NCBI RefSeq assembly: GCF_014196225.1
Contig: NZ_JACIDI010000004.1
Location: 62,001 to 126,000, forward strand
Origin: Bacteroides pyogenes
GTDB lineage: Bacteria > Bacteroidota > Bacteroidia > Bacteroidales > Bacteroidaceae
Direction: 5' to 3'
Length of the DNA stretch: 64,000 nt
Under the pieces are notes generated by a model that searched no databases, was not told the DNA's origin, and was given only the letters and a program-made list of their open reading frames with translations. The translations under genes were made by a program, and so were the position numbers. Shown here one piece after another: positions 1-20,394 of this stretch. The number at the start of each line of letters is the position of its first letter. Position 1 is the stretch's first letter.

Positions 1-138
1 CACCGGGAGATAGCGGCGGAGATGAACATGTCCGTCAAAGGGGTGGAATACCACATCTCCAAAGCCACTTCCGCCCTGAAGCATGCCCTGAAAGACTTCC
101 TGCCCATACTGCTTTGGCTGCTGAAAATCTACCCATAG
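1..138 (+). CDS. ECF-type sigma-70 factor, C-terminal fragment
   Basis: Open from the left edge in frame 1 and ending at TAG 136-138, so only the last 45 codons are visible. They read as sigma region 4.2: REIAAEMNMSVKGVEYHIS is a helix-turn-helix that would contact the -35 element, followed by a short basic/hydrophobic tail ending in LLKIYP. The next gene is a FecR-type anti-sigma factor and then a SusC with an STN signalling domain, which is the standard order of a trans-envelope sigma/anti-sigma/transducer system in Bacteroides. It is inferred to direct transcription of the downstream susCD genes when FecR is relieved. A LuxR-type regulator also carries a similar HTH, but the fecR neighbour favours an ECF sigma factor. 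Confidence 0.82.
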   Translation, partial: HREIAAEMNMSVKGVEYHISKATSALKHALKDFLPILLWLLKIYP

Positions 139-264: not shown

Positions 265-368
265 AGATGTATACCCGTTGTTTTTTCTCCTCTTTTTGCA
301 TTTATTAACTAGGGGATGCCATTGTTTGTGTGTTATTACATACAAAAGGAGATTCCTTTTTTATTTTA

Positions 369-1322
369 ATGACACAAATGCATTTAGATAAAGAACTGTT
401 GTATCGCTTCTTCTCCCAGCGCACGACGCCGGATGAAGAGAAGAAAATCCGGCTTTGGTTGGAAGAGTCGGACGAGCACCGCCGCGAACTCTTTCGCGAG
501 CGGAAGCTGTTCGACGCCCTCATTCTCAGGGGAGATGCCGAATCGGTTTCAAGAAACCGTGTCCGCCGCCATTTCCCTTGGCGCAGAATAGCCGTCGCCG
601 CTTCGGGCATTGCGGCTGTCTTCCTGCTGGCGGTAACAACAGCCTATTACCTTCTGGAACAGTCGATGGAAAAAGAGGAGATGATGAACACGGTTTCCGT
701 TCCGCAAGGGCAGCGGGTGAGCCTGACGCTGGCAGACGGCACTCGCGTATGGCTCAACGCCATGACCCGGATGGAATACCCGCAAAGCTTCAGAGCCTCC
801 GGCAAGCGTATGGTGCATATCGACGGAGAAGCCTATTTCGAAGTCAGTCGTAATGCCAAGAAGCCTTTTGTGGTACATACCGGCAAAGGAAACGTGGAGG
901 TGCTGGGCACCAAATTCTATGTCGATGCCTACAATCGGACGAACCGTTTTGAAACGTCTCTGGTAGAGGGAAGCGTCAAAGTATCCACGCCCACCGCCGA
1001 GCTTATGCTACATCCCAACCATAAAGCCGTCATGCTGGCCGATGGAAGATTGGTTCGTGAAAAGATAACGGACATGGATGTTTACCGTTGGAAAGACGGG
1101 CTCTACTGTTTCAAGGATATTCCTTTTTCCGAAGTGTTGAAGCAGTTTGAAGTATATTACGACGTACGTTTTGTTTTCAGCAAGCATGTGAAGCGCAACC
1201 CGGTCATCAGCGGCAAGTTCAGGCTGGTAGACGGAGTGGATTACGCATTAAGGGTATTGCAGCGCGATATCCCTTTCTCGTTCCGGAGGTCGGAAGAGTC
1301 GAATATAATCTATATAGAATAA
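369..1322 (+). CDS. FecR-family anti-sigma factor
   Basis: A 317-residue inner-membrane anti-sigma factor. Residues 1-60 form the cytoplasmic, charged, helical sigma-binding region; one membrane segment lies at about 74-96 (IAVAASGIAAVFLLAVTTAY); a periplasmic FecR domain lies at about 108-205; and a C-terminal DUF4974 domain, which contacts the STN domain of the transducer, at about 247-310. In the family it holds the ECF sigma factor inactive until a SusC/FecA-like receptor binds its ligand. The ATG at 369 is preferred: a GTG at 330 would add 13 residues unlike the family. A second ATG at 378 is also possible. It lies between the sigma factor and an STN-containing SusC, so the pairing is clear. 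Its last 33 bp are also found, detached, at 7203. Confidence 0.92.
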   Translation: MTQMHLDKELLYRFFSQRTTPDEEKKIRLWLEESDEHRRELFRERKLFDALILRGDAESVSRNRVRRHFPWRRIAVAASGIAAVFLLAVTTAYYLLEQSMEKEEMMNTVSVPQGQRVSLTLADGTRVWLNAMTRMEYPQSFRASGKRMVHIDGEAYFEVSRNAKKPFVVHTGKGNVEVLGTKFYVDAYNRTNRFETSLVEGSVKVSTPTAELMLHPNHKAVMLADGRLVREKITDMDVYRWKDGLYCFKDIPFSEVLKQFEVYYDVRFVFSKHVKRNPVISGKFRLVDGVDYALRVLQRDIPFSFRRSEESNIIYIE

Positions 1323-2150
1323 TTTGTTGAACCTTTTAAAAAAACACGCAGCGCCTATGTAAAAAACACTACACAAACCAAAATGGCAGATACTGCCAAT
1401 ATCTGCCAAATCTTGAGAAGAAAACGCTTTTCGCTCCTGCATGAAAAGCATTTATCTACAATCTAATCGTAAAAATATGAAAAATAAACCATTAAATGAG
1501 GCTGTCGATTTGAAAAAGCCTCATGTTAACCTATTTTATAGAATTATGAGAATCACAACATTCTTGCTGTTTTTCTGCTCGTTCTGTTCTTTTGCCGGCA
1601 CTGCACATTCGCAGTCGTCGAAGGTCACCATCAAAAAGAGCAACGCCACTTTGCTGGAAGTCCTGAACGAGATTGAAAATCAAACCAACTATTTGTTTGT
1701 TTACTCCAACGACGTGGACGTGAAACGTCCGGTATCCCTCAATGCAGACCGAAAGAGCGTATCGAGCGTTCTCTCTGAAATCTTTAAGAAAGATGACGTG
1801 CACTATGTGTTGGAAGGTACGCACATCGTGCTTACCAAGCGCAAATCAGCCGATGAGAGCCGCAGCATACAGCAAACGGCTCAGGCGGAACCGGTGGAAG
1901 GCGTGGTGCTCGACCGCAACGGCGACCCGATCATCGGCGCTTCGGTGGCAGTGAAAGGCGGTACAGGAGGCACCATTACCGATTTGGATGGTAAATTCTC
2001 GTTGGAAGCGCCGCGCAACTCCGTACTGATCGTCTCCTTCATTGGATATAAGACACAGGAGGTATCTGCTGTTAGCGGTCGACAATTGAATATCACGCTC
2101 GAGGAAGATACCAAAACGCTGGACGAAGTTGTGGTTGTGGGATATGGAAC
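1290..2150 (+). repeat. Long direct repeat, copy 1 (fecR tail + leader + susC N-terminus)
   Basis: From the fecR 3' end at 1290 to codon 225 of the first susC (about 2150) this stretch is nearly identical to 7203-8059. The match starts abruptly inside the fecR coding sequence and stops abruptly just after the TonB box (VVVGYGTQ), where the two SusC proteins become unrelated at the sequence level. The coding part differs at only about nine residues out of about 228; the leader part has small indels. Confidence 0.92.
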
Positions 2151-5046
2151 TCAGAAGAAAGCAAACTTGACGGGAGCAGTAACTTCCGTTGGTGGAAAAG
2201 TCTTGGAAAACCGTCCGATAACTAACATTGGTCAAGGTTTGCAGGGAGTTGTCCCCAATTTGAATGTGACAATGAATGGTGGCGCTCCGGGTAAAGGTGC
2301 ATCGTTTAATGTACGCGGAACCACTTCTTTAAATGGGGGCAGCCCTTTAGTATTGGTGAATAATGTACAAATGGATCCCAACTTGGTAAATCCTGATGAC
2401 GTAGAATCTATATCTGTACTGAAGGATGCAGCTTCGGCAGCTATATACGGAGCACGTGCCGCTTATGGTGTTATATTGATAACCACGAAGAATGGTAAGA
2501 AAAATGCTAAGCCACAAATCAATCTGTCCATCAACGGATATTGGCAAACACCTGCTGTTCGTGTGACTAATGTGAACTCCATAGAGTTTATGACAATGAA
2601 AGATATAGCCTTTAAAAACGGCGGTGGAAGCGGAAGTATGTTCTCTGATCTTTTCCGTAAATATGTAACTGATTACTACGAAGGAAGATATCCTTATACG
2701 GAATTTTATGATGAGAAAACCGATAAAAACAAATGGCAGTATTGCGGAAATACTGATTGGTTTAAAGAACTGTACCGAACTTCTTTCTCGCAGATGTATA
2801 ATGTAAGTCTTACGGGGGGAACGGATAAGACCATCTACTATGCTTCGGTAGGTATGAATAATGTGAATGGTGTATTGAAAGCTGGTGATGACCATTACGA
2901 TAAATACAATGTAAATCTTAACTTGTCTACCGACGTGACCCCATGGCTTAATGTGTCGGGTAAAATTTCTCATACACATACGGTAGAGAAGCACCCTTCA
3001 GGCGGTAACAGTAAGATGAATCCTACCGCATGGTCCGGTTTGTCGGCATACAGTGGCATGATGAAGAATGACCTCAGTCCTTTCATGCCCGTAAAACACA
3101 GCCATACAGGCCGCTTGTACAACGAAGCCGGAGCCCCTGCGATGAATCAAGACGACATACACACCTCCGGAGGCAAAGTTTATAAGGACGATGGCATTCA
3201 TTACTATGCCGGGCAGGGAAGTTATACCAATCCCGTAGCTATACAAGAGCAAGGTGGAAAAGCTGAATATAAGCAAAACGATTTATGGATGACAGGAGCT
3301 GTACGCCTTACTCCGTTGAAAGGGTTAGTGATCAATGCCGATTACACTTTTAATTTTTATGGTAAAGGTACGAAAGAACATGTACAGCCTTTCTATGATT
3401 ACACGGCTGTAGCCGGTACAGAGCAGTACTATCCGTGGACTGCCACAAGCAGCGTTGTACTTGGCAATAATGAAGATTATTATCAAGCATTAAATGTTTT
3501 TGCCGAATATACGAAATCGTTTAACGATACCCATAATTTCAAGATTATGGCCGGATACAACCAAGAAAAGAAACGTAAGAAACATTTTTGGGCCGGACGT
3601 CAAAACCTCATAGATGTGAATAACCCTGCGTTGAATTTGGCTTCGGGTGATAAGAACCTTAATGGTAGTGAAACCCATTGGGCTATCAATGGCTTTTTTG
3701 CTCGTATCAACTATAATTACAAGCAGCGTTATCTTGTAGAGATGAATGGTCGATACGACGGTTCTTCTCGTTTTAAAAAAGGAGAGCGTTATGCGTTTTT
3801 CCCATCTTTCTCTGCTGCTTGGCGCATATCAGAGGAAAAGTTTTTTACCTCTGCGAAGAAATGGATAGATGACTTCAAACTACGTGCATCATGGGGATCA
3901 TTAGGAAATCAGGCTATTGAAGACAAATATGGAAACTTCCCTTATCTTCCTGCTTATGGTGTAAATCAGTCGTACAATTATTTGTTTAATAATCAGAAAC
4001 CTGTAGCTGTCACTCCTTCGGGACTGGTTAGCGCTTCTTTTACATGGGAAACTGTGAATCAGCTCGATTTTGGTTTCGATCTTTCTATGTTTGACAATCG
4101 CCTGAATGCTACATTTGACTGGTATCGTCGTAATACGAAAGATATGCTTACTGCAGGTAAAACACTGCCTGCTGTCTTGGGAACGAGAGTTCCCGTTTCA
4201 AATGCTGCGGACTTGAAAACTTGTGGATGGGAAATCAGTCTTAATTGGCGAGACCGCCTTTCCAATGGTATTTCTTATTGGGTGAAAGGTGTGCTTTCCG
4301 ATTACCAAAGTGAAATTACTCGTTTTGCTAATGAAGTAGGATTGATTGATAACTACTATGTAGGACGTAAAATAGGAGAAATATGGGGATATCGTGTGGA
4401 AGGATTATTCCAAAGTGACCAAGAAGTGAAAGATCATGTTGACCAGTCAAGACTCTATGGTGGAAAATGGGCTTCGGGAGATGTGAAGTATAAAAACTTA
4501 AATAATGATGATAAAATAGACTGGGGGAAAAATACTCTTGACGATCATGGTGATTTGGATATAATAGGAAATGATACTCCACGCTTTAGTTATGGTATTA
4601 CTGCCGGTATGGAATGGAAGGGTATTGATTTTGAAATGTTCTGGCAAGGTGTCGGTAAACGCGATTATATGCCGGGTGGAGGCGCTTTCTGGGGATTTAG
4701 TTCGCAATGGGATACTCCGTTGAAAACAGCGCTTGACTATTGGACACCCGATAATAAGGGAGCTTATTTCCCTCGCCCCAGCTGGGTTCAAAGTGGTAAT
4801 CGCAAAACATCCGACCGTTATTTGCAAAACGCTTCTTATGTGCGTTTGAAGAATATTACATTAGGTTATACTTTACCTAAAATATTCACACAGAAAGCAG
4901 GAATCGGACGGTTGAGAATCTACTTGCAGGGAGAGAATCTTCTTACTTTCACTCCTATGATAAAAGCTTTTGATCCCGAAGAAATTAATAATTTGACTTA
5001 TCCCATTCAAAAGAAAGTCTCGGTTGGGTTGAATTTAACTTTATAA
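1477..5046 (+). CDS. SusC-like TonB-dependent transporter with STN signalling domain (copy 1)
   Basis: A 1189-residue outer-membrane receptor. In order: a long basic N-terminus and signal peptide ending near AHSQ (about 46), an STN domain (about 58-120) for contact with FecR, a carboxypeptidase-regulatory-like beta-sandwich (about 140-212), a TonB box DEVVVVGYG (216-224), a plug with SISVLKDAASAAIYG, and a large beta-barrel ending GLNLTL. It imports a bulky nutrient together with its SusD lid, and signals through the upstream FecR. An in-frame ATG at 1441 would add 12 residues; 1477 is preferred because the second copy can only start at the equivalent ATG. The susD gene follows after 19 bp. 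The substrate cannot be read from the sequence; the context (ECF control, GH95/GH20/GH110 further on) makes a host glycan plausible. Confidence 0.93.
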   Translation: MKNKPLNEAVDLKKPHVNLFYRIMRITTFLLFFCSFCSFAGTAHSQSSKVTIKKSNATLLEVLNEIENQTNYLFVYSNDVDVKRPVSLNADRKSVSSVLSEIFKKDDVHYVLEGTHIVLTKRKSADESRSIQQTAQAEPVEGVVLDRNGDPIIGASVAVKGGTGGTITDLDGKFSLEAPRNSVLIVSFIGYKTQEVSAVSGRQLNITLEEDTKTLDEVVVVGYGTQKKANLTGAVTSVGGKVLENRPITNIGQGLQGVVPNLNVTMNGGAPGKGASFNVRGTTSLNGGSPLVLVNNVQMDPNLVNPDDVESISVLKDAASAAIYGARAAYGVILITTKNGKKNAKPQINLSINGYWQTPAVRVTNVNSIEFMTMKDIAFKNGGGSGSMFSDLFRKYVTDYYEGRYPYTEFYDEKTDKNKWQYCGNTDWFKELYRTSFSQMYNVSLTGGTDKTIYYASVGMNNVNGVLKAGDDHYDKYNVNLNLSTDVTPWLNVSGKISHTHTVEKHPSGGNSKMNPTAWSGLSAYSGMMKNDLSPFMPVKHSHTGRLYNEAGAPAMNQDDIHTSGGKVYKDDGIHYYAGQGSYTNPVAIQEQGGKAEYKQNDLWMTGAVRLTPLKGLVINADYTFNFYGKGTKEHVQPFYDYTAVAGTEQYYPWTATSSVVLGNNEDYYQALNVFAEYTKSFNDTHNFKIMAGYNQEKKRKKHFWAGRQNLIDVNNPALNLASGDKNLNGSETHWAINGFFARINYNYKQRYLVEMNGRYDGSSRFKKGERYAFFPSFSAAWRISEEKFFTSAKKWIDDFKLRASWGSLGNQAIEDKYGNFPYLPAYGVNQSYNYLFNNQKPVAVTPSGLVSASFTWETVNQLDFGFDLSMFDNRLNATFDWYRRNTKDMLTAGKTLPAVLGTRVPVSNAADLKTCGWEISLNWRDRLSNGISYWVKGVLSDYQSEITRFANEVGLIDNYYVGRKIGEIWGYRVEGLFQSDQEVKDHVDQSRLYGGKWASGDVKYKNLNNDDKIDWGKNTLDDHGDLDIIGNDTPRFSYGITAGMEWKGIDFEMFWQGVGKRDYMPGGGAFWGFSSQWDTPLKTALDYWTPDNKGAYFPRPSWVQSGNRKTSDRYLQNASYVRLKNITLGYTLPKIFTQKAGIGRLRIYLQGENLLTFTPMIKAFDPEEINNLTYPIQKKVSVGLNLTL

Positions 5047-5065
5047 CTTTAAATATTATACGCCT

Positions 5066-6808
5066 ATGAAAGTGAAATACATATTAGCTGTTGCAAGTAT
5101 AACTTGTGCAGTTGCTGCTTGCGATGTATTGGACATCGCACCACTTGATACTTTAACCGATAAAAGTTATTGGACGACAGTTAATGATCTAAAGCTTTAT
5201 GCCAACGGTTTTTATAACAATCTTGACGCTCCGAGCGTAAATAAAGACGATGTGAGTGACAATTGTGTGACAACAAATTATGCCCCCATACTTTTTAATG
5301 AAAGCACCGTACCTGCATCAGGTGGCGGATGGGATTGGGAAAATATTCGTGCTTGTAACTTTTTCATGAAACGTTACCATACTGTGCAAGGTACTCCTGA
5401 AAGCATTAATCCTTATGTGGCGGAAATACGTTTTTTCCGTGCTCTCGACTACTATGGTAAGATAAAGAGTTTCGGTGATGTGCCTTGGTACGAAAGTGAC
5501 TTAACGGATAATGACAAGGAAGAACTTTACAAGCCGAGAGAACCGAGAGATGAGATTTTGCTGAAAGTGATTGATGATATGAGATTCGCCATCCAATGGC
5601 TTCCTGAAGCGGGCATGCAAGAAAAAGGGAGGCTGCATAAAGATGCAGCTCGTGCTCAATTGGCGCGTATTTGTCTCTACTATGGAACTTATAAGAAATA
5701 TCACAAGGAGACAGGAAAGCCTACGTCTGAGGAATTGCTGAAGGAGGCTATTCTGCAGACTGACGAATTGATAAAAAGCGGTAGATATGCTATTGTGAAA
5801 GGAAGTGATGCCGGGTGTGGTCAGTTGCCATTCGAAGGTTATCCGCTTCACTATTCTAATCAGTTTGTTCAGGAAGATCTAAGTAGTAATAAGGAAGCTA
5901 TTTTTGCACGCTATTACGTGCAAGACTTGCTTACACACCAGACCGGAAGGCGGGCTGGTAGTAGCGGAACTGGGCTGAGCAAGGATTTTATAGAATCTTT
6001 TTTATGTAAAGATGGAAAACCTATTGCCAATACTTCTCTTTATAAAGGTGATGAAAGTCTGGAAGATGAGTTTGTTAATCGTGATCCACGTATGTATCAG
6101 ATTGTAGATAATAAAAACAAACCTTACCTAATTATTAACGGGGAAAAACAGACGAATCCATATCCTGATTGTGCTCCGTCAAATGCTGTAACAGGCTATC
6201 CGTGTGTGAAATTCCGCTCTCCTTTGCAAATACAGTGGGAAGCTAACAAAACGACTTATGACTGGTTTGTTTACCGTTATGCGGAAACGTTGCTAATAAA
6301 TGCCGAAGCAAAATACGAGTTGGGGCAATGCACACAAGACGTACTGAACAAAACCATCAATTTGCTTCGTGACCGTGTGGGGATGCCTCATCTCACAACC
6401 GCCCCAGAGGCTGATAAAAAGCCGCTGAATTACGGATATGAAGTGGAACCTTTGTTGTATGAAATTCGTCGTGAGCGTCGTATCGAGTTGGTAGCTGAAG
6501 GACATCGCTGGGATGATTTGCGTCGCTGGAATGCGATGAAGTTACTTGAGAATCCCAAAACGATGTTGGGTATACGAGTAACTGATAAAGTGAAAGCTCA
6601 ATATGGGAGTAATGTAACTTTTGGTGGAGAGACAGGACGCCCATTGGTAGAATATGAAGGAAAAACATATTTACATCAATACACCGGCAAAGAGTTAAAT
6701 GATGCCGGTAGAAAGTGGAGCGAGAATGACAAACGCTGGTTAAGTCCTATCCCGACTGATCAGCTCACGCTTTACGAAGGTGTACTGAAGCAAAATCCTA
6801 ATTGGTAA
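5066..6808 (+). CDS. SusD/RagB-family nutrient-binding lipoprotein (copy 1)
   Basis: A 580-residue surface lipoprotein. The lipobox VAAC (Cys about 19) follows a short signal sequence, then the SusD N-terminal helical region and the RagB/SusD C-terminal domain, with typical motifs such as RYAETLLINAEAKYELG and EIRRERRIELVAEGHRWDDLRRW. SusD proteins form a hinged lid on the SusC barrel and capture the substrate at the cell surface. It starts 19 bp after the first susC and is certainly co-transcribed with it. It is followed by a strong hairpin (6886-6936). Confidence 0.94.
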   Translation: MKVKYILAVASITCAVAACDVLDIAPLDTLTDKSYWTTVNDLKLYANGFYNNLDAPSVNKDDVSDNCVTTNYAPILFNESTVPASGGGWDWENIRACNFFMKRYHTVQGTPESINPYVAEIRFFRALDYYGKIKSFGDVPWYESDLTDNDKEELYKPREPRDEILLKVIDDMRFAIQWLPEAGMQEKGRLHKDAARAQLARICLYYGTYKKYHKETGKPTSEELLKEAILQTDELIKSGRYAIVKGSDAGCGQLPFEGYPLHYSNQFVQEDLSSNKEAIFARYYVQDLLTHQTGRRAGSSGTGLSKDFIESFLCKDGKPIANTSLYKGDESLEDEFVNRDPRMYQIVDNKNKPYLIINGEKQTNPYPDCAPSNAVTGYPCVKFRSPLQIQWEANKTTYDWFVYRYAETLLINAEAKYELGQCTQDVLNKTINLLRDRVGMPHLTTAPEADKKPLNYGYEVEPLLYEIRRERRIELVAEGHRWDDLRRWNAMKLLENPKTMLGIRVTDKVKAQYGSNVTFGGETGRPLVEYEGKTYLHQYTGKELNDAGRKWSENDKRWLSPIPTDQLTLYEGVLKQNPNW

Positions 6809-6885
6809 CAATCTTGTTTATGTGTTTTTTACAACAATGACTCCTCTGATTTAAGTATTCTTCAGATACGAGTTTCTTAGTAGAT

Positions 6886-6936
6886 TATCCCCTTATTTAG
6901 CTTTCTTGTTTTAAGTAGAGCCTAAATAAGGGGATA
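6886..6936 (+). terminator. Stem-loop after the first susCD pair
   Basis: A perfect 15-bp inverted repeat, TATCCCCTTATTTAG at 6886-6900 and its complement at 6922-6936, with a 21-nt loop, lies 78 bp after susD. There is no long T run after it, so it may be a terminator, an mRNA-stabilising 3' end, or both. From 6937 to 7202 I see no gene. Confidence 0.55.
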
Positions 6937-7202
6937 GCTATAATTGATCGGTTGTTTATTTTGTTGGAATTTCTTTGAGATATCTGAAATATCCGGAAGG
7001 GACACTGTCTGTTTTAACATTCGTTGACTAGGTCTCTCCTTTTTATATGTGTTATTATTAATAAGACTAGATTTTCTTGATGGTATAATTTGATGTGCGT
7101 TGTGGCGTATGTTGTCCACAAAGCTTTAAAATTTAACTTCGGTTATCTATAGTAAGAGCAAATTAGCCGGAGGAGTATCGTATGTTGAGATAGAAAAATC
7201 TA

Positions 7203-8059
7203 TCGGAAGAGTCGAATATAATCTATATAGAATAATTTGTTGAACCATTAAAAATCAGTAGCGCCTATGTAAATCACACCATCCAAACAAAAATGGAAGA
7301 TACTGCCGATATCTGCCAAATCTTGAGAAGAAAACGCTTTTCGCTCCTGAATGAAAAATATTTATCTACAATCTAATCGTAAAATATGAAAAATAACCCA
7401 TTAAATGAGGCTGTCGAGTTGAAAAAGCCTCATGTTAACCTATTTTATAGAATTATGAGAATCACAACATTCTTGCTATTCTTCTGCACATTCTGCTCTT
7501 TTGCCAGCACTGCACATTCGCAGTCGTCGAAGGTCACCATCAAAAAGAGCAACGCCACTTTGCTGGAAGTCCTGAACGAGATTGAAAATCAAACCAACTA
7601 TTTGTTTATTTACTCCAACGACGTGGACGTGAAACGTCCGGTATCCCTCAATGCAGACCGCAAGAGCGTATCGAGCGTTCTCTCTGAAATATTTAAGAAA
7701 GATGACGTGCACTATGTGTTGGAAGGTACGCACATCGTGCTTACCAAGCGCAAATCAGCCGATGAGAGCCGCAGCATACAGCAAACGGCTCAGGCGGAAC
7801 CGGTGAAAGGCGTGGTGCTCGACCGCAACGGCGACCCGATCATCGGTGCTTCGGTGGCAGTGAAAGGTGGTACAGCGGGAACCATTACCGATCTGGATGG
7901 TAAATTCTCGTTGGATGCGCCGCGCAACTCCGTACTGATCGTCTCCTTCATTGGATATAAGACACAGGAGGTATCTGCTGTTAGCGGTCGACAATTGAAT
8001 ATCACGCTCGAGGAAGATACCAAAACGCTTGACGAAGTTGTGGTTGTGGGATATGGAAC
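7203..8059 (+). repeat. Long direct repeat, copy 2 (fecR scar + leader + susC N-terminus)
   Basis: Second copy of the block at 1290-2150. The first bases (7203-7235) are the end of the fecR coding sequence, including its stop codon, but no fecR gene precedes them here. The leader is shortened by a few bases relative to copy 1. This marks a duplication, or a gene-conversion tract, that carried the sensor module of SusC to a second transporter. Confidence 0.92.
7351..7389 (+). other. 12-codon leader reading frame overlapping second susC
   Basis: ATG 7351 opens a 12-codon frame (MKNIYLQSNRKI) whose TGA at 7387-7389 overlaps the susC start ATG 7386-7388 as ATGA. In the first copy one extra A in the run before the ATG makes the same leader read in frame into susC (1441). 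Whether it is translated is unknown; it could permit translational coupling, or it may simply be residue of sequence drift. Confidence 0.35.
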
Positions 8060-10718
8060 GCAACGCAAGGAGAGTCTCACAGGTGCTATGCAAAGCATCA
8101 AAAGTGACAAACTTCAGAATGTGACCAGTCCGTCGGTTGAGAATCTTTTAAACAGCAAGGCTCCCGGTGTATATGTTGCTCCGGGTTCGGGACAGCCCGG
8201 TTCCAGCGGAGCCGTTGTGATTCGTGGTAAAACTACATTGAATGGTATTACCGATCCGTTATGGGTGATAGATGGTGTGATTGTAGGAAACAGTGCCGGC
8301 CAGTTGAATCCTGCGGATATCGAGAGCATGACTATTTTGAAAGACGCAGCTTCTACAGCTATATATGGTTCGCAAGGAGCTAACGGAGTCATCGTTGTTA
8401 CTACAAAGAATCCGCGCGCGGAGAAAATGACAATTAATGCATCGGCAAAGATGGGATTTAGCAGGCTGGACAATGGAAACCTGAAGATGATGAATGGAGC
8501 AGAGCTATACGATTATTATGCTTCTTATCAGAATGCAAATGAAATCTCGTTTTCCCGCTGGAATCCGGATTTGAGAAACAGCAACTTTGATTGGTGGAAC
8601 TTGGCTACTCAAAGCGGATATGTTCAGGATTACAATGTTTCTATGCAAGGCGGAGGAGAAAAGCTACGCTCTTATCTTTCGTTAGGATATTATGATGAGG
8701 ATGGTGCAGTGAAAGGATATAACTATTCACGTTACAATTTCCGTTTCAAGACCACTTATAAACCTCATGAACGAATCACGGTTAAGCCTTCAATCAATGG
8801 TGCCCGCCGTGACATTGATGATCGGCAGTATTCGGTGACGGCCATGTATTCCATGTTGCCTTGGGATAGCCCTTATGATGAAAAAGGGAACCTTGTTCCT
8901 CATCGTTATAGCGGTTGGGTAAATAGCCAGCAGACCAACTATTTGTATGATTTGCAATGGAATCATTCGGAATCTAGGCAATATGAGTTTTCCGGTAACT
9001 TGGATTTTGATGTAAAAATTACAGATTGGCTTACTTTTTCTTCGGTCAATAATTACAGATATACGAATCTTTCGACTCATGGCTACTCAGATCCCCGTTC
9101 GAGCAACGCTCAAAATGTAGGCGGACGTATTACAGAGTGGAGGCAAGACTGGACACGGAGGTATACCAACCAGATACTCCGTTTCAATAAAGTTTTTGAG
9201 AAGCATTCTGTCAACGGATTACTGGCTTATGAGTTTAACGATTATCTCCAAAATTTCGTAGATGTATATGGTACAGGCTTCGTTCCCGGATTTGAGGTAC
9301 TGCAGGTGACTGCTAAGCCTGAACGTGCCAAAGGATATACAACCGAATGGGCTGTGCAGTCTTATTTGTTTAATGCTAATTATGCTTACGACAACAGGTA
9401 CTTGGCTCAGTTCTCTTTCCGTCGTGACGGCGCTTCTAACTTTGGAGACGATGTGAAATATGGAAATTTCTTTTCCATAAGTGCCGGTTGGAATATCCAT
9501 CGGGAGCGTTGGTTTAAAGCCGATTGGGTTGACAATCTGAAATTACGTTTGTCATATGGAACAGTGGGGAATCGTCCTTATGATTTATATCCTCAATATG
9601 ATTTATATGCTGTGGGAGCAAGCTATAACGGTGTTCCGGGTGCGTTAATCTCGCAGATCGGTAATCCCGGACTTACTTGGGAGAAAACTTTTACTACCGG
9701 TGTTGGGGTGGATGCTTCTTTCTTTGCTGACCGTCTGCGGCTTGCTCTTGATTTTTATATCAAAAAAACCGACAATATTCTTTATAAGGTTCCTATCACA
9801 GGATTAACGGGGGTTACCAATATTTGGAGAAATATTGGAAAAATGGAGAATAAAGGTATCGAACTGGCTATCGGAGGAGATATCATCCGCAATAAAGATT
9901 GGGTGTGGAGTATGGATATCAATATGGGATACAACAAAAACAAACTCAAAGACTTGTACAGGCAGCTGAATACTGCGGGAGAATATGTGGTACAGCCGGT
10001 TATTATCAATGATGGTACCTCTATTGCCGGTACGGCACAGAGGGTTTTGGAAGTTGGAGAACCGGTAGATACTTACTATCTGGTGGAATGGGCGGGAGTC
10101 AATCCCGACAATGGCGCGCCGATGTGGTATAAGAACGATGGAAGCGGTGAGAAAACCTCCAAATATGCAGAAGCCAAACAGACCAAATGCGGCACCTCTG
10201 CGCCCGATCTGTTCGGCGGATTCTCAACTTCGCTGACATGGAGGAATTTTGACCTGAACGCGGTTTTCGGCTACTCCCTCGGAGGGCAGATATATAACTA
10301 TTCGCGTCAGGAATACGATGCGGATGGTACTTATAGTGACCGAAATCAGATGAAACTGAAAAAAGGATGGACCCGTTGGCAGAAAGAGGGTGATGTGGCA
10401 ACGCATCCGGTGGCTAAATATAATAATCAGGATAAAGGGAACTCTCCTTCTTCACGCTATTTGGAGAGCAATGACTTTTTGAAGATGCGCTCTCTTACGT
10501 TGGGATACAACTTTAAGCTGCCGCAGTACGGTATCCGGAACCTCCGTTTCTTCTTTACAGGTGAAAACTTGTTCACCATTTCAGGCTATTCGGGCGTAGA
10601 TCCGGAATTGGCGGCTGGAAAAGATGCAGAAGGCAGGTTGGGCGTTATGGGTACTGCACTTCCTTCTGTTTACCCCTCTACGCGTAAGTATATGTTTGGA
10701 TTAAATCTAACTTTCTAA
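7386..10718 (+). CDS. SusC-like TonB-dependent transporter with STN signalling domain (copy 2)
   Basis: A 1110-residue outer-membrane receptor with the same architecture as copy 1: signal peptide ending near AHSQ, STN (about 58-120), carboxypeptidase-regulatory-like domain (about 140-212), TonB box DEVVVVGYG, plug (MTILKDAASTAIYG) and barrel ending FGLNLTF. The first about 228 residues are almost identical to copy 1, whereas plug and barrel differ throughout, so the ligand should differ while the contact surface for FecR is kept. There is no second fecR or sigma gene. The upstream TGA/ATG overlap fixes the start at 7386. The susD gene follows after 13 bp. Confidence 0.93.
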   Translation: MKNNPLNEAVELKKPHVNLFYRIMRITTFLLFFCTFCSFASTAHSQSSKVTIKKSNATLLEVLNEIENQTNYLFIYSNDVDVKRPVSLNADRKSVSSVLSEIFKKDDVHYVLEGTHIVLTKRKSADESRSIQQTAQAEPVKGVVLDRNGDPIIGASVAVKGGTAGTITDLDGKFSLDAPRNSVLIVSFIGYKTQEVSAVSGRQLNITLEEDTKTLDEVVVVGYGTQRKESLTGAMQSIKSDKLQNVTSPSVENLLNSKAPGVYVAPGSGQPGSSGAVVIRGKTTLNGITDPLWVIDGVIVGNSAGQLNPADIESMTILKDAASTAIYGSQGANGVIVVTTKNPRAEKMTINASAKMGFSRLDNGNLKMMNGAELYDYYASYQNANEISFSRWNPDLRNSNFDWWNLATQSGYVQDYNVSMQGGGEKLRSYLSLGYYDEDGAVKGYNYSRYNFRFKTTYKPHERITVKPSINGARRDIDDRQYSVTAMYSMLPWDSPYDEKGNLVPHRYSGWVNSQQTNYLYDLQWNHSESRQYEFSGNLDFDVKITDWLTFSSVNNYRYTNLSTHGYSDPRSSNAQNVGGRITEWRQDWTRRYTNQILRFNKVFEKHSVNGLLAYEFNDYLQNFVDVYGTGFVPGFEVLQVTAKPERAKGYTTEWAVQSYLFNANYAYDNRYLAQFSFRRDGASNFGDDVKYGNFFSISAGWNIHRERWFKADWVDNLKLRLSYGTVGNRPYDLYPQYDLYAVGASYNGVPGALISQIGNPGLTWEKTFTTGVGVDASFFADRLRLALDFYIKKTDNILYKVPITGLTGVTNIWRNIGKMENKGIELAIGGDIIRNKDWVWSMDINMGYNKNKLKDLYRQLNTAGEYVVQPVIINDGTSIAGTAQRVLEVGEPVDTYYLVEWAGVNPDNGAPMWYKNDGSGEKTSKYAEAKQTKCGTSAPDLFGGFSTSLTWRNFDLNAVFGYSLGGQIYNYSRQEYDADGTYSDRNQMKLKKGWTRWQKEGDVATHPVAKYNNQDKGNSPSSRYLESNDFLKMRSLTLGYNFKLPQYGIRNLRFFFTGENLFTISGYSGVDPELAAGKDAEGRLGVMGTALPSVYPSTRKYMFGLNLTF

Positions 10719-10731
10719 TTGGCAAGAGAAT

Positions 10732-12603
10732 ATGAAAAAGATAATAATGATATTATTGGCGGCAATGTCTTTGGTTGCCTGCGATATTGAGCGTTTGCCG
10801 AGTAACAGTATGTCGGCAAGTAAAATAACAGGCGACCCTTCATCATCTTTGGGCGCACTGATGAATGGGATGTATGCGCAACTGAAAACATGGTCTGATC
10901 CGATGCATCGTTGCGGTGAATATGCCGGTGACAATATGATGATTCGCGGTTCTTCTACAGATGCGTTTTATGAATTTATTTCATTCTCTCGTACGGCTAA
11001 GAATTATCGTTTGCAGAACTTCTGGGACTACGGCTACAAGGCAATTGCCCAGGCGTCTAACATCATATCTATGATAAAAGAGGGACAAGGTGCCGAGATA
11101 GACAACAATCTTGGAGAATGTTACTATGTGCGCGGTATGCTGTACTTTTACCTCGCCCGAGCTTACGGTCGTCCTTACTATCAGGCTCCGGATAAAAACT
11201 TGGGTGTGCCCATTGTAAACGGAACGCCCGAAAATGTATTGGGTGATATGTTGCTGCCCGATAGAGCCACAGTGGAAAAAACTTATGCTCAAGCTATCGA
11301 GGATTTGAAAAAGGCGGAAAGCCTGATGACAATTGATAAGGGAGTAGCTTATGCGTCGAAAGAGGCTGCATGGGCAATGCTGTCGCGTATTTATCTTTAT
11401 ATGAGCGGTACTTACGAGTCGCCCAATCGGGAGTATGCAGCGTTGGCTGCAGATTATGCAACGAAAGTGATAAAGTCGAATAAATACACGTTGTTGTCGC
11501 GGACGGATTTTATGAAATACAATCAATTGAAGCCGGAGAATAATAAGGAGTCTATTTTTGTGGTGAAACGTGTTGCATCCGAATTTTCAGGCTACGACCA
11601 TTACTATGGCGTTGGAGGTATGTATGCCAATATCGGTGGCATGGGATGGGGTGAGATGTATGCCAGTGCGAAATATATAGACCTGCTTAATGAAACCGGA
11701 CGCAATGACTGGCGACCCGACAGCTATAAAATTGTTGATGCGCGGGCTGCATTTATCGAACCTACTTATTATAAGTCGGAAAATGGGAAGATGAGAAAAG
11801 TACTCAGGTTTGTCAAGCCTACCCTTCCGGCGAAAGTGAACATTACGTTGAACGACAATATCGGATATAACTATGTACAAGCTGATTTCAGTGAAGAAGG
11901 CGGAAAGTTCTATGCCACAGAAAAAGCGGTAACTCAATATGAAAGAAGTAAGGATGACCCTGATAAACTGGTAGCTAAAAAAGGAGCTGACGGCAAGACG
12001 GAAGTGAAAGATGTGAAGTATGAACTTGATTTAGTATCCGAAGAAGATGGTTATTTCAAGGTGAAAAAATACAATGCAGGCAACAATGTCACCCCTGTGT
12101 TTATCGATCTGGTAGGAACGCAAGATTATTTTATAACTTTGAATCGTGCATATCCTCAGTTTTATATTACCAAATGTTCTCGTGAAGGGGAAGATTCTCA
12201 TTTACATTCACCGGTCATCAGCCGATTGGGGGAAATATTTTTGAACAGGGCCGAGGCGTATGCCAAAATGGGTGAATATGGAAAGGCGTTGATTGATTTG
12301 AATACAATTCGGGGACGTTCTATCGAAGGAGGAGAATATCCGGATCTTTCTGCTGATAAAGCCGGCGAGTTGATTGATAAGGAGCGCCAGTTGGAATTGG
12401 CGTTTCAGGCAGAGCGCAGCTATGACGTCTTCCGTAATGGAAAAGCTTTGCAGCGTCGTTATCCGGGACCTCAAAAACAGTTTGAAGATGTGCCGGCTAC
12501 GGATTTTCGTGTGGTGTATTATATACCACAGGATGCCATCAATTCTTATCCGGGCACGCTGACTCAGAATCCTACGGACAATAGCAAGGTAATTTTGCAC
12601 TAA
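10732..12603 (+). CDS. SusD/RagB-family nutrient-binding lipoprotein (copy 2)
   Basis: A 623-residue lipoprotein with lipobox LVAC (Cys about 17) and SusD fold signatures: NLGECYYVRGMLYFYLARAYG in the TPR-like N-terminal part and RLGEIFLNRAEAYAKMGEYG near the C-terminal domain. It is not closely similar to the first SusD, as expected since the barrels also differ. It carries a lysine/aspartate-rich insert around residues 400-430 (KDDPDKLVAKKGADGK) that is likely a surface loop. It is the partner of the SusC 13 bp upstream and the last gene before a terminator. Confidence 0.93.
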   Translation: MKKIIMILLAAMSLVACDIERLPSNSMSASKITGDPSSSLGALMNGMYAQLKTWSDPMHRCGEYAGDNMMIRGSSTDAFYEFISFSRTAKNYRLQNFWDYGYKAIAQASNIISMIKEGQGAEIDNNLGECYYVRGMLYFYLARAYGRPYYQAPDKNLGVPIVNGTPENVLGDMLLPDRATVEKTYAQAIEDLKKAESLMTIDKGVAYASKEAAWAMLSRIYLYMSGTYESPNREYAALAADYATKVIKSNKYTLLSRTDFMKYNQLKPENNKESIFVVKRVASEFSGYDHYYGVGGMYANIGGMGWGEMYASAKYIDLLNETGRNDWRPDSYKIVDARAAFIEPTYYKSENGKMRKVLRFVKPTLPAKVNITLNDNIGYNYVQADFSEEGGKFYATEKAVTQYERSKDDPDKLVAKKGADGKTEVKDVKYELDLVSEEDGYFKVKKYNAGNNVTPVFIDLVGTQDYFITLNRAYPQFYITKCSREGEDSHLHSPVISRLGEIFLNRAEAYAKMGEYGKALIDLNTIRGRSIEGGEYPDLSADKAGELIDKERQLELAFQAERSYDVFRNGKALQRRYPGPQKQFEDVPATDFRVVYYIPQDAINSYPGTLTQNPTDNSKVILH

Positions 12604-12678: not shown

Positions 12679-12690
12679 CTTTGAAAAAGG

Positions 12691-13662
12691 CGTAATGGAC
12701 ATTTGGTAGGCTGAAAACCTCTCGAATGTCCTTTATTTATTACCTTTGCAGCATTTGAAAGCTTATGAATAAAAAAATGTATATTCTATAACAGCTCAAA
12801 TGTTAAAAAGAATGGTCATCGGCGTAACATCCAGATGTACTTTTGCAAGGATTGCGGCAGGCAATTCCAAAGTGGTCATCGTATAGAGAATGTCTCTTTA
12901 TGGAATGACTATCTGACCGAGAAGCGAACCATTTCTGAACTATCCATTCTTCACAAATGTTCAGAAAGAACCATACGCCGTAGGTTAAGTTCAGTGACAG
13001 ACAGCTTCACTCCTATCTATCCTGAATCTGCAACAATAATACTGGATACAACCTACTTTTCCAAGACGTTTGGTCTGATGCTGTTTCAAGATGCTGCATC
13101 AGGCAGGATTCCAGATGCATTGAAGAGAGTGGAACTCGGATAAAGTCCATGGTGTGTGATGGACATATCGGGCTTTTACAAGCTGTAACTTCCTGTCCTG
13201 TGCAGATGTGTCAATTCCATCAGTTGCAGATAGTTAGAAGGATTCTTACCAACAATCCGCATTTGCCCGCAGGTATCGAACTGCTGGCATTAATGAGGAG
13301 TATGTTCTCTATGGGGAAAGAAGAATTTGTATCAGGCTTTGATAAATGGTGTGATGAATGGAAAGAGTTCCTGGATGAACGAACTCTCCTAATCTCCGGA
13401 AAGACAACCTATACACATAGAAGGCTGAGAACTGCAAGGCGTTCTGTAAAGACACACCTTAAATGGCTCTATACGTATGAAGAATATCCTGAATTAGAGA
13501 TACCCAATACGACAAATCTTTTGGAAGGATTCAACTCACAACTTAAAAGAGCACTGCGTAATCATAATGGAATGAATAAGGCTAATAAAAAGAAGTTCAT
13601 AGATGGGTTCCTAAATATAAAAAAGTAGGCTGGGAGTACCAGCCTACCAAATGTCCATTACG
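12691..13662 (+). mobile_element. Insertion sequence, IS256-like Zn-binding type, decayed
   Basis: Perfect 23-bp terminal inverted repeats, CGTAATGGACATTTGGTAGG+CTG at 12691-12713 and its complement at 13640-13662, bracket a transposase pseudogene. The element is about 970 bp, short for the family because of an internal deletion. I find no convincing target-site duplication in the flanks. It landed just after the terminator of the susCD operon and before a toxin-antitoxin pair. Confidence 0.85.
12765..13628 (+). pseudogene. Transposase pseudogene (IS256-like, variant Zn-binding type)
   Basis: The reading frame is broken at least twice. The natural start at 12765 leaves frame in a run of seven A (12771-12777); with six A it would continue as a zinc-ribbon N-terminus with CKDCGRQFQSG. 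The first CxxC of that ribbon now reads C-I-F-Y, so one metal-binding Cys is lost. The second break is at about 13110-13149, where a deletion removes the residues between the DTTYF...FQDAASG segment (first catalytic Asp region) and VCDGHIGLL (second Asp region). The last part, to 13628, keeps the family C-terminus with TTNLLEGFNSQLK. The protein is inferred to be inactive; the ends could still be moved in trans. Confidence 0.85.
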
Positions 13663-13793
13663 TCCGTATGAATACGGAGATAAAGTAAAGTTGCTTTCAG
13701 TGATTCGCTTGAAAAAGTGTAGAACCGCTTAAATACCATATCTTCTAATCTTGCTTTTTACCTATAATACATCATTAAATATATAAAAAATAG

Positions 13794-14143: not shown

Positions 14144-14146
14144 ACT

Positions 14147-16013: not shown

Positions 16014-18509
16014 ATGATGAAAAAAATCTTTTCGCTACTACCTGCACTTATTATGCTATGCCCTCTTCGGGCCGGTGAGCATACGAGAAATTATTCCATT
16101 TGGTTCGACAAACCGAATACTTTGGAAGGACGATCCGTCTGGTACGGCGGGCGTCCCGACATGTGGAAGGGAGAAAATAAACCTGAGTCCGCCGGAGACA
16201 CTGCGCGGAATCCTGATGCGGCTTGGGAATCGAGGTCGCTGCCAATCGGTAACGGCAGCTTGGGAGCAAACGTTTTGGGTTCGGTGGAGGCCGAACGAAT
16301 TACTTTCAATGAGAAAACTCTGTGGCGAGGGGGACCTAACACGTCTAAAGGAGCGGCTTATTACTGGAATGTGAATAAGCAGTCGGCTCATATTCTGGAT
16401 GAAATCCGCCGGGCGTTTGTTGACGGAGACGGGGAGAAGGCGGCGCGGCTGACACGGGAGAACTTCAATAGCGAGGTTCCGTACGAGGCGTCGCGCGAGA
16501 ATCCTTTCCGGTTCGGTAATTTCACTACGATGGGGGAGTTCTACATCGAAACGGGACTGAGCGCTGTGGGGATGAGTGGCTATCGGCGCAGCCTTTCGCT
16601 GGATTCGGCGGTGGCTGTGGTGCAGTTTAAGAAAGACGATGTGGCATACAAGCGCGACTTTTTCATCTCTTATCCCGCCAATGTGATGGCGGTGCGTTTT
16701 GCCGCCGACCGTCCGGGTAAACAGAACCTTACGTTCAGCTATGCGCCCAATCCGGTATCGGAGGGGGAGATGAAACCCGACGGCAACAACGGACTGGTAT
16801 ATTCCGCCGCGTTGGATAATAACGGGATGAAGTATGTGGTGCGCATCCGTGCGGTGGCGAAAGGCGGAACGTTGAGCAATGCCGGCGGAAAGATAAGGGT
16901 GGAGGGAGCCGATGAAGCCGTGTTTTATATCACGGCGGATACGGACTACAAGATGAATTTCGATCCTGACTTCAATGACCCGAAGACGTATGTAGGCGTG
17001 AATCCTGCTGAAACCACCCATCAGTGGGCGGATGATGCGGAAGCGAAAGGATATGAGGCCTTGCTTGCCGAGCATTACGCGGATTATTCATCCTTGTTCC
17101 GGCGGGTGAAGTTGAACCTGAATCCCGGTATGCAGGTTGCCGATGTGCCTACCGACGAGCGTTTGCGGAATTATCGCAAAGGGCAGCCGGACTATTATCT
17201 GGAAGAGCTTTATTATCAGTTCGGACGCTATCTGCTCATTGCAAGTTCGCGGCCGGGCAATATGCCTGCCAATCTGCAAGGGATATGGCATAACAATGTG
17301 GACGGTCCCTGGCGTGTGGATTACCATAATAATATCAACGTGCAGATGAACTATTGGCCTGCCTGCTCAGCAAACTTGGACGAGTGCATGCTTCCGCTCA
17401 TCGACTTTATCCGTACGCTGGTGAAGCCGGGAGAGAAAACGGCCCGCGCTTACTTCGGGGCGAGGGGGTGGACGGCGTCTATTTCCGCCAATATTTTCGG
17501 GTTTACCGCTCCGCTGGAGAGTCAGGATATGTCGTGGAACTTCAATCCGATGGCGGGTCCGTGGCTCGCAACGCATGTCTGGGAGTATTACGACTATACG
17601 CGCGACAAGAAGTTCCTGAAGGAAATTGGTTACGAACTGATTAAAAGCAGTGCCCGTTTTGCGGTCGACTACTTGTGGCATAAGCCCGACGGCACATATA
17701 CTGCGGCTCCTTCCACATCGCCGGAGCATGGCCCGGTGGATCAGGGAGCTACATTCGTGCATGCCGTAATTCGTGAGATTTTGCTGGATGCCATCGAAGC
17801 CGGTAAGGTGCTGAATGTAGACCGCAAAGAGCGGAAGGAGTGGGAGCATGTGCTTGCCCGACTGGCTCCCTATCGGATAGGGCGCTACGGGCAATTGATG
17901 GAGTGGTCGACAGACATCGACGATCCGAACAACCATCACCGGCATGTGAATCATCTGTTCGGCCTACATCCGGGGCGTACCATCTCTCCCGTCACCACCC
18001 CCGAATGGGCGAAAGCTTCTCAGGTGGTGCTGAGACATCGGGGCGACGGAGCTACCGGGTGGAGCATGGGATGGAAGCTGAACCAATGGGCACGCCTGCA
18101 TGACGGCAATCATGCCTACACACTCTTTGGCAACCTGCTGAAAAACGGTACGCTGGATAATCTTTGGGACACACACCCTCCTTTCCAGGTCGACGGGAAC
18201 TTCGGAGGAACGGCGGGCATCACCGAGATGTTGTTGCAAAGCCACATGGGATTCACTCAGTTGCTTCCGGCTTTGCCCGATGCGTGGAAGGAAGGCTCGG
18301 TGAACGGTATTCGTGCGAAAGGAAACTTTGAAGTGTCTATGAAGTGGAAAAACGGGAAGTTGACGGAGGCTGCCGTTCGTTCCAATGCCGGAGAGCAATG
18401 TACACTGAAGTATGCCGGGCAGACACTTTCTTTCAAAACGGTGAAGGGGGCGAGCTATCGGATTCTGTACGATGATTCCGGAAAGTTGGCCAAGGAATTG
18501 ATAAATTAA
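16014..18509 (+). CDS. GH95 glycosidase (alpha-1,2-L-fucosidase / alpha-L-galactosidase)
   Basis: A 831-residue secreted glycosidase with an N-terminal signal peptide (MMKKIFSLLPALIMLCPLRA). Family features: N-terminal beta-sandwich with WESRSLPIGNGSLGANVLG and ITFNEKTLWRGGP, then an (alpha/alpha)6 barrel. The GH95 catalytic set is visible: N-I-N at 440-442 (in YHNNINVQMNYWPA), general acid Glu571 (STSPEHGP) and Asp727 (QVDGNFGG). It is an inverting enzyme removing terminal alpha-1,2-linked fucose, for instance from H-antigen or mucin O-glycans. It is the first gene of a same-strand run with GH20 (21 bp later) and GH110. ATG 16014 and 16017 are both possible starts. Confidence 0.93.
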   Translation: MMKKIFSLLPALIMLCPLRAGEHTRNYSIWFDKPNTLEGRSVWYGGRPDMWKGENKPESAGDTARNPDAAWESRSLPIGNGSLGANVLGSVEAERITFNEKTLWRGGPNTSKGAAYYWNVNKQSAHILDEIRRAFVDGDGEKAARLTRENFNSEVPYEASRENPFRFGNFTTMGEFYIETGLSAVGMSGYRRSLSLDSAVAVVQFKKDDVAYKRDFFISYPANVMAVRFAADRPGKQNLTFSYAPNPVSEGEMKPDGNNGLVYSAALDNNGMKYVVRIRAVAKGGTLSNAGGKIRVEGADEAVFYITADTDYKMNFDPDFNDPKTYVGVNPAETTHQWADDAEAKGYEALLAEHYADYSSLFRRVKLNLNPGMQVADVPTDERLRNYRKGQPDYYLEELYYQFGRYLLIASSRPGNMPANLQGIWHNNVDGPWRVDYHNNINVQMNYWPACSANLDECMLPLIDFIRTLVKPGEKTARAYFGARGWTASISANIFGFTAPLESQDMSWNFNPMAGPWLATHVWEYYDYTRDKKFLKEIGYELIKSSARFAVDYLWHKPDGTYTAAPSTSPEHGPVDQGATFVHAVIREILLDAIEAGKVLNVDRKERKEWEHVLARLAPYRIGRYGQLMEWSTDIDDPNNHHRHVNHLFGLHPGRTISPVTTPEWAKASQVVLRHRGDGATGWSMGWKLNQWARLHDGNHAYTLFGNLLKNGTLDNLWDTHPPFQVDGNFGGTAGITEMLLQSHMGFTQLLPALPDAWKEGSVNGIRAKGNFEVSMKWKNGKLTEAAVRSNAGEQCTLKYAGQTLSFKTVKGASYRILYDDSGKLAKELIN

Positions 18510-18530
18510 TGTATTAAGAAGCTTTTGTCT

Positions 18531-20144
18531 ATGAATAGACCAACCGTTCTTTTCGTGATGCTGCTTTTTGCGCTTGGGGTTGCGGCGCAAGAGCATTTGT
18601 CCGCTTTACTCCCTTTCCCCAATCATGTGGAACAACGGCAAGGGGTGTTCCGCTTGTCGGATAAGGAAACAATTGGTGTCGGTTCCGGCGATTTGCAATT
18701 TGCCGCCGCAGAGTTGCAACAGGTCTTTAAACAGCGGTTCGGCTTTGCGCCTGCTGTGTCGGATAACGGAAGAATCCGCCTGATGCTCAATCCCCGGATG
18801 GAGGGAGAGGAACAGTATCGCTTGACAGTCGATGTCAAAGGAATAAGCATTGAAGGTAGAACGGCTGCGGGAGTGTATTACGGAGTGATAACGCTCGATC
18901 AGCTCTTGTTGGGCGATGTGGCGAATACGAAGCAAGGGCGGATACGAGCAGTGCGTATAGACGATGCGCCGGCTTATCCGTTTCGGGCGTTAATGCTCGA
19001 TCCGGCACGCCATTTCTTGCCTGTGGAGGCAGTGAAGGGGTATATCGACTGCATGACGCGTTACAAATTCAATACGTTGCAGCTGCATCTTTCCGATGAT
19101 CAGGGTTGGCGCATCGAAATCAAGAGCCATCCGAAACTGACGGAGGTCGGTGCGTTCCGCAACCCGAAAGCGTCGGCAATCAGTCCCGACAATGGTTACT
19201 ACACGCAGGATCAACTCAGGGAACTGGTGGAGTATGCAGCCCTGCGCAACGTAGAGATTATTCCCGAAATAGATGTGCCGGGACATACGGCAGCTATTCT
19301 TACGGCGTATCCCGACTTGCGTTGTGATTTTCTGAAAGATTCTGCTTTCGTTTTTGGGAAAACGGATAATGTGATGCTTTCGGCTGCCAATCCGAGGGTG
19401 TACGAGGTGCTCGACGATATTATCCGTGAAGTGGGCGATGTCTTTTCGTCGAAGAAGATCCATCTGGGGGGAGATGAGTCGGCTATAGAGCGAAACTGGG
19501 CGAAGAGTCCGGAGAATCTGGAACTGATGCGCAGTCATGGCTACACATCCCCCGACCAATTGATGAATGTCTTTTTCGGCAAGGTGCTGGCTTCTGCCAA
19601 GAAATACGGGCTCCACGCCATTCTGTGGTGCGAGCTGGACAATATACGCCTGCCTGCCGATAAGTACCTTTTCGACTATCCGCAAGATGTGACGCTCGTT
19701 ACGTGGCGCTACGGACTTACACCCAAATGTATCGAGCTGACACGCGAATCGGGCAATACGCTGATTCTGGCGCCGGGCGAGTACACATACTTCGATTATC
19801 CGCAGTATGCGAACGACCTGCCCGAGTTCAACAACTGGGGAATGCCGCTCACCACGCTTCGGAAGACGTATGAGTTCGACCCTACTTATAAGCTTGAGCC
19901 GGGACAGCGAAAGCATATAGCGGGTGTGATGGGAACACTTTGGGGAGAGGCCATCAAAGACATAAACCGTGCCAACTATATGACTTATCCGCGCGGGCTG
20001 GCATTGTCCGAAGCGGGTTGGACGCAGATGTCTCTCCGCAGTTGGGATTCGTTCAGGAAAAGGCTCTATCCGAATCTGTTGGAACTGATGAAGCGGGGAG
20101 TGTCGTTTCGGGTTCCTTTCGAGATTGAGGGCGAAAGACGCTGA
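18531..20144 (+). CDS. GH20 beta-N-acetylhexosaminidase
   Basis: A 537-residue secreted enzyme with a signal peptide ending about VAAQ (residue 20), a GH20b-type alpha/beta N-domain (about 25-145) and a TIM barrel starting at FRALMLDPARHFLPVEAV. The catalytic Asp-Glu pair is D315-E316 in HLGGDESAIE; substrate-assisted catalysis uses the N-acetyl group. Late barrel motif MGTLWGEAI supplies the tryptophan that binds the sugar. It releases terminal beta-GlcNAc or GalNAc. It starts 21 bp after GH95, so the two are co-transcribed. The ATG at 18531 is preferred over the in-frame TTG at 18525. Length is normal for compact Bacteroides GH20 enzymes. Confidence 0.94.
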   Translation: MNRPTVLFVMLLFALGVAAQEHLSALLPFPNHVEQRQGVFRLSDKETIGVGSGDLQFAAAELQQVFKQRFGFAPAVSDNGRIRLMLNPRMEGEEQYRLTVDVKGISIEGRTAAGVYYGVITLDQLLLGDVANTKQGRIRAVRIDDAPAYPFRALMLDPARHFLPVEAVKGYIDCMTRYKFNTLQLHLSDDQGWRIEIKSHPKLTEVGAFRNPKASAISPDNGYYTQDQLRELVEYAALRNVEIIPEIDVPGHTAAILTAYPDLRCDFLKDSAFVFGKTDNVMLSAANPRVYEVLDDIIREVGDVFSSKKIHLGGDESAIERNWAKSPENLELMRSHGYTSPDQLMNVFFGKVLASAKKYGLHAILWCELDNIRLPADKYLFDYPQDVTLVTWRYGLTPKCIELTRESGNTLILAPGEYTYFDYPQYANDLPEFNNWGMPLTTLRKTYEFDPTYKLEPGQRKHIAGVMGTLWGEAIKDINRANYMTYPRGLALSEAGWTQMSLRSWDSFRKRLYPNLLELMKRGVSFRVPFEIEGERR

Positions 20145-20217
20145 AAGGCCGGCTCGGCAGACAAGTGTTTTATTGCGTGCCGGCTTCCACACTGCCGGGA
20201 GGTTGACGTGGATACGC

Positions 20218-20340
20218 TCATAGCTTGATATGAAGGTGTTCAGAGCCTTTTGCACGGAAGCTGGGCATCTTTTCCAAGGAGATATATGTATTGACGGGAT
20301 AGGTGTTCGGCATCGACAGGTTGAGGCTTGGGTATCGGCG
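20218..20340 (-). pseudogene. Possible C-terminal scrap of a lost gene
   Basis: On the minus strand about 40 codons read like a natural protein end, including NTYPVNTYISLEKMPSFR and finishing AKGSEHLHIKL-stop (stop at 20218-20220). Upstream in the same frame stops appear at once, so no complete gene exists. The strand is opposite to its neighbours. I do not recognise the family; this may be chance. Confidence 0.25.
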
Positions 20341-20394
20341 CGAAGGTTATGAATTGGCATATATTTATGAAATATCTGTAAAACGATTGATTGT

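Follow-up and report, generated by a model that had tools for sequence, protein, structure and literature searches.

Host glycans are the usual target of PULs that are controlled by an ECF sigma factor and an anti-sigma factor (PMC11501099). When the signalling domain of PupB was moved onto PupA, the PupA ligand induced the PupI/PupR system (Koster, 1994, reviewed in PMC9249621). The signalling domain of FoxA from Pseudomonas binds FoxR and protects it when no ligand is present, and an excess of this domain blocks signalling (PMC11637429). SusC shufflons, in which inverted repeats extend over the susC start, have also been described (PMC5729914, PMC4747536). The locus analyzed here lies in a DNA stretch of 64,000 nucleotides, the whole of which is termed the window. 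Based on sequence comparisons, it is likely to be a trans-envelope signalling locus in which one FecR reads two SusCD pairs, the sensor is homogenised between the two receptors, and the barrel and SusD are swapped at the TonB box.

The gene content of the locus (Table 1) combines the marks of cell-surface signalling, namely an ECF sigma gene adjoining the gene of a FecR-domain anti-sigma factor and an N-terminal STN with a TonB box in both SusC1 and SusC2, with those of SusCD importers, namely TIGR04056 for SusC and PF07980/PF14322 for the adjacent SusD. Both SusC proteins contain the Pfam domains STN, CarbopepD_reg_2 (NTE), Plug and barrel. The downstream GH95, GH20 and GLAA-B-type genes probably belong to the same utilization locus as the susCD pairs and suggest that it is a host-glycan locus; PDB searches with the SusC and SusD proteins returned generic SusCD relatives only and did not indicate a substrate. 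A hipB/hipA-like pair (13823-15412) is located between susD2 and the glycosidases, and an IS256-family (Zn variant) element of two frames (about 12680-13665) between susD2 and hipBA. The latter element is missing there in B. pyogenes DSM 20611, which has 124 bp of the left end in inverted orientation at the site. Tandem repeats of 22-23 bp that are related to one another, with units like ATATATGCCTACCGTGGTGAGC, occupy the intergenic positions 156-250, 26119-26235, 36064-36162 and 51880-52101, the first of them between the sigma gene and fecR.

Table 1. Features of the two-receptor locus (window positions) and positions of the four-pair loci in the B. fragilis group
Feature	Position	Strand	Remarks
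ECF sigma gene, 3' end	1..135	+	TIGR02985 Sig70_bacteroi1; start upstream of the window, about -452
fecR	330..1322	+	Sole local anti-sigma factor; FecR and FecR_C domains
Sensor module, copy 1	1290..2153	+	Last 33 bp of fecR, leader, signal peptide, STN, NTE, TonB box; base-by-base alignment
Leader inverted repeat, copy 1	1385..1407	+	GGCAGATA-N7-TATCTGCC, conserved
susC1	1441..5046	+	ATG common with copy 2 at 1477
SusC1 domains	STN 1690-1839; NTE 1894-2136; plug and barrel from 2155
SusC1 plug-barrel	2155..5046	+	Slot-1 cargo; other barrel in B. pyogenes DSM 20611
susD1	5066..6808	+	Slot-1 lid lipoprotein
Strong hairpin	about 6884..6942	+	Spacer from susD1 to copy 2; z -5.15; without U-tract
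Sensor module, copy 2	7203..8062	+	Base-by-base alignment
Orphan fecR tail	7203..7235	+	Same sequence as the final 33 bp of fecR; base-by-base alignment
Leader inverted repeat, copy 2	7295..7317	+	One mismatch
susC2	7386..10718	+	Intact frame of 1110 aa
SusC2 domains	STN 7599-7748; NTE 7803-8045; plug and barrel from 8064
susD2	10732..12603	+
GH95, GH20 and GLAA-B-type (GH110-like) genes	16014..22188	+	Host-glycan enzymes
Four STN-SusCD pairs, B. fragilis Q1F2	G076:C1:398419-422305
Four STN-SusCD pairs, relative	G072:C1:1068869-1092746
Four STN-SusCD pairs, relative	G014:C4:63552-87440

A preliminary description of this DNA reported a sensor module of about 860 bp common to the two SusC proteins. 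Base-by-base alignment (blastn) bears this out: the two copies are direct repeats with 95.6% identity over 861 columns. The copied segment is larger than was described, since it includes the final 33 bp of fecR (SEESNIIYIE and the stop codon) and the entire fecR-susC leader. The alignment stops at the end of the TonB box (VVVGYGTQ), exactly where the break had been placed, and the plugs and barrels beyond this point are distant (about 26% aa). The nearly identical block, formerly put at about 228 residues, comprises 226 residues from the signal peptide through the STN and NTE to the TonB box, with eight differences between SusC1 and SusC2 and a single one (V/I) within the STN domain. The two copies are the only full-length matches to the module in the 3.39-Mb genome, and other matches comprise nothing beyond a short TonB-box stretch. 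This likeness is far beyond chance, and the orphan fecR tail in front of copy 2 is a footprint of copying. The TonB box is the best-conserved DNA stretch of susC genes, with many 46-52 bp matches at 80-87%, which offers a simple reason for the position of the breakpoint.

The leader probably holds the putative promoter. Both window leaders contain the inverted repeat listed in Table 1, which is recognisable in most related leaders; a search for further sigma targets by this repeat gave good matches in the window at the two leaders only. The leaders differ at 16 of 150 sites, i.e. they have not been homogenised recently, and thus the strengths of the two may differ. In the spacer between susD1 and copy 2, a simple scan detected no intrinsic terminator, sigma-70-like promoters were near chance level, and the strong hairpin is a possible transcript end.

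A comparison of profile coordinates across the window genome identified 18 FecR domains and about 14 STN-SusCs. For the STN-SusCs, a FecR is encoded at a distance of about 0.7-1 kb upstream, the exceptions being copy 2 and a gene located where a contig ends; six other FecRs are found without a Pfam-recognised STN neighbour. The preliminary description noted a single local sigma/FecR pair and named a second fecR or sigma gene specific for copy 2 as evidence against its reading. Copy 2 has neither, and with all 18 FecR domains of the genome considered, no second fecR or sigma gene was found beside it. The conclusion that one FecR would serve two receptors is well supported by this arrangement. 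The parts were also compared across 42 unbiased FecR-anchored loci, with r calculated from pairs below 60% FecR identity. The identities of FecR and STN are correlated (r=0.60), as are those of plug and barrel (0.78) and of barrel and SusD (0.87), while the values for FecR-barrel (-0.01) and STN-barrel (0.02) are near zero. Judged by these correlations, the sensor and the transporter body are two separately inherited blocks that meet at the TonB box.

We propose that the transferable unit consists of the fecR tail, leader, signal peptide, STN, NTE and TonB box, and that a second SusC in front of which it is copied would gain both a sigma-dependent leader and a sensor fitting the local FecR. 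The STNs of SusC1 and SusC2 are predicted from their sequences to bind the same FecR. Ligand uptake via either SusC would alter FecR stability and induce both susCD pairs, probably together with the GH95/GH20/GH110-type enzymes. RecA-type recombination among the module copies or with imported DNA would keep the sensor uniform, and the same recombination would let new transporter bodies join at the TonB box. The readout of such a locus probably depends on what share of the STNs is occupied, in a balance of occupied and empty receptors, and is less likely to follow a strict OR.

The preliminary description suggested a signal-OR arrangement. In a strict gate of this kind, each ligand by itself would bring about full induction of the two susCD pairs via the one FecR. 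The premise of one FecR for two receptors stands, given the near-identical STNs and the FecR-STN co-variation, but the OR logic is called into question by the Pseudomonas precedent. The near-identity of STNs and leaders and the PupB/PupA chimera (PMC9249621) agree with such a gate; however, the anti-sigma factor in Pseudomonas is protected by a signalling domain that has no ligand, and additional domain prevents induction (PMC11637429). As the two receptors would be induced at the same time, FecR could be kept inactive by whichever of them is empty. We therefore regard a strict gate as possible but somewhat doubtful. By analogy, an empty receptor may hold FecR back, and the protection of the anti-sigma factor by an empty domain implies that the signals of two receptors may be averaged or may weaken one another.

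The locus is conserved in the sister species represented by B. pyogenes DSM 20611, where a 46,444 bp contig is syntenic with the window (one genome per species was compared, and the contig order in DSM 20611 was deduced from contig ends). Nucleotide identity is 88-91% in sigma-fecR and 96-99% downstream; the SusC2 barrel is 95.9% identical in nucleotides and 98% in amino acids, SusD2 94.3% in nucleotides, and SusC2/SusD2 97-98% in amino acids. Slot 1 of DSM 20611, represented by a 5.2-kb contig between two module ends, encodes another SusC barrel (31% aa to SusC1) and another SusD (27%), flanked by the same module and fecR tail. The contigs end inside the module, as is expected of a repeat. 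The 3' end of the 5.2-kb contig aligns to window positions 7024-7393 at 82%, indicating that the copy-2 junction is common to both genomes and old. SusC1 has no orthologue in DSM 20611 (best match 37%), and its nearest barrels elsewhere (60-68%) are without STN. The nearest relatives of the DSM 20611 slot-1 barrel (75%) include one in another genome (G104) that sits behind an orthologous FecR (62%) and the module; the others sit behind unrelated FecRs (27-32%). Taken together, the missing SusC1 orthologue, the STN-less SusC1 relatives and the G104 arrangement point to an exchange of the body behind the module, which most likely happened in the window species. This difference in slot-1 plug-barrel-SusD between orthologous loci of sister species was missed by the preliminary description. 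A further contig, labelled Prevotella MAG SUG404, carries slot 2 only, with B. pyogenes-like SusC2/SusD2 (99.7% nt), and is likewise cut at the module; it is probably a misbinned B. pyogenes contig.

Among 91 FecR-SusC loci, a near-identical direct copy of the module is present in the window only, and inverted copies were identified in two other lineages. In G089 (locus L229, G089:C3:346797-357533), an inverted copy of 839 bp with 78% identity starts about 22 bp inside fecR. The FecR tail and STN of this module are non-orthologous to those of the window, the locus has one sigma/FecR, and the module joins transporters of the B. pyogenes slot-1 type and of the SusC2 type. B. fragilis Q1F2 and two relatives have one sigma/FecR among four STN-SusCD pairs (Table 1), and two of the four STN-SusCs have in common an inverted module of about 860 bp that ends at the TonB box (88-90%). 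Between the two relatives, G072 and G014, leader and STN sites group by genome (27:0), whereas NTE sites group by slot (39:3; p 4e-16). In the fecR-adjacent slot, the identity of Q1F2 and G014 is 99-100% from sigma and fecR across the leader into the first part of STN, then about 94% to the TonB box and about 70% in the barrel and SusD, while G014 and G072 are 92-98% identical in the barrel and SusD of this slot; this is a second cargo swap. A GTTC-N5-GAAC motif is located 5' of all four STN-SusCs of the B. fragilis group (6-7 matches vs. 0.4 expected). For one of them it falls on an orphan fecR tail, which suggests that in this clade the tail was copied because it carries cis-regulatory sequence. 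The leader inverted repeat may be a candidate counterpart of this motif in the window clade.

The repeats could alternatively serve expression-site or phase variation, with module recombination picking the SusCD behind fecR and the 5.9-kb slot-1 unit looping out. The 860-bp direct repeats, the fecR-adjacent position of the variable slot and the known SusC shufflons fit this scheme. However, copy 2 has its own leader and needs no move for expression, and three genomes of the B. fragilis group are collinear over the homologous locus with its four SusCs. Invertase sites are short, whereas these repeats are long and imperfect, and no recombinase was identified beside the module among the classified window genes. 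The repeats at the susC 5' ends are direct in the window and not inverted as in shufflons, though the B. fragilis group and G089 have inverted copies. We consider phase variation unlikely.

The preferred reading, in which the sensor is homogenised, finds support in the divergence between genomes. In the STN segment (335 bp), the two window copies differ at 5 positions, and from B. pyogenes slot 2 at 37-38 (Fisher 2e-7 and 1e-6), while barrel 2 differs by 4.1% between window and B. pyogenes. The two B. pyogenes leaders differ at 1 of 151 sites from each other and at 10 of 151 from window copy 1; concerted evolution in B. pyogenes rests on the leader, NTE and slot-2 STN, the slot-1 STN being absent from the assembly. 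By this comparison, and as in the quartet of the B. fragilis group, paralogues are closer within a genome than to their orthologues, i.e. the window STN copies are in concerted evolution. The gene conversion formerly invoked to explain the uniform sensor is thus supported by species-specific homogenisation. High identity of the copies could also reflect the youth of a tandem duplication that has no regulatory meaning, but the arrangement and the 7203 junction are common with B. pyogenes (about 82% around it) and so predate the split, the copies are nearer within than between genomes despite this origin, and the same pattern recurs in two further lineages, which makes recent duplication very improbable. 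That copy 2 is a relic, either silent or in decay, as its fecR tail (useless as protein and decayed in B. pyogenes) could suggest, is hardly credible given the intact susC2 frame, the 97-98% aa identity of SusC2/SusD2 kept in B. pyogenes and an STN nearly identical to that of copy 1.

At the level of sequence, these data establish copying of the module, its homogenisation within genomes and plug-barrel-SusD exchange between sister species. We give about even chances to a wider reading, namely that Bacteroides species use plug-in receptors, where a single anti-sigma factor registers how many sensors are occupied among two to four different SusCDs, the leader and STN are kept identical by gene conversion, and barrel and SusD cassettes are swapped behind the TonB box. 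If this is true, new nutrients could be added to an old switch without a new regulator; the division into separate sensor and body blocks would account for the linking of new transporters to an existing Bacteroides regulator. It also opens to testing how one anti-sigma factor combines the signals of several receptors and whether empty receptors inhibit. For practical analysis, a whole-protein SusC phylogeny or ligand prediction mixes two histories, and short-read assemblies break at such repeats.

The components of this scheme are all known, but a locus that unites several receptors under one FecR with homogenised sensors and exchanged cargo was not found in the limited, open-access literature searched. 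As in the ECF-sigma/FecR/STN-SusC PULs of Bacteroides, the locus has the order sigma, FecR, STN-NTE-SusC and SusD with host-glycan enzymes nearby; classic PULs, however, have one FecR per STN-SusC, whereas here two STN-SusCD pairs, whose sensor has been copied, follow a single FecR. The PupB/PupA chimeras likewise place an N-terminal signalling domain on another barrel, so that a new ligand drives the same FecI/FecR pair, but they were engineered, whereas the chimera in the window is natural, includes the leader and coexists with the other receptor. In the B. fragilis shufflons (Tsr0667; region EE), repeats over susC 5' ends also link alternative SusCD pairs; these systems have inverted recombination sites and an invertible promoter, in contrast to the direct 860-bp sensor/leader repeats of the window, for which no invertase was identified. 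Finally, the module resembles paralogous segments in concerted evolution by gene conversion, whose copies are closer within than between genomes, and differs from the general case in that homogenisation is confined to the leader and sensor and ends sharply ahead of the transporter body.
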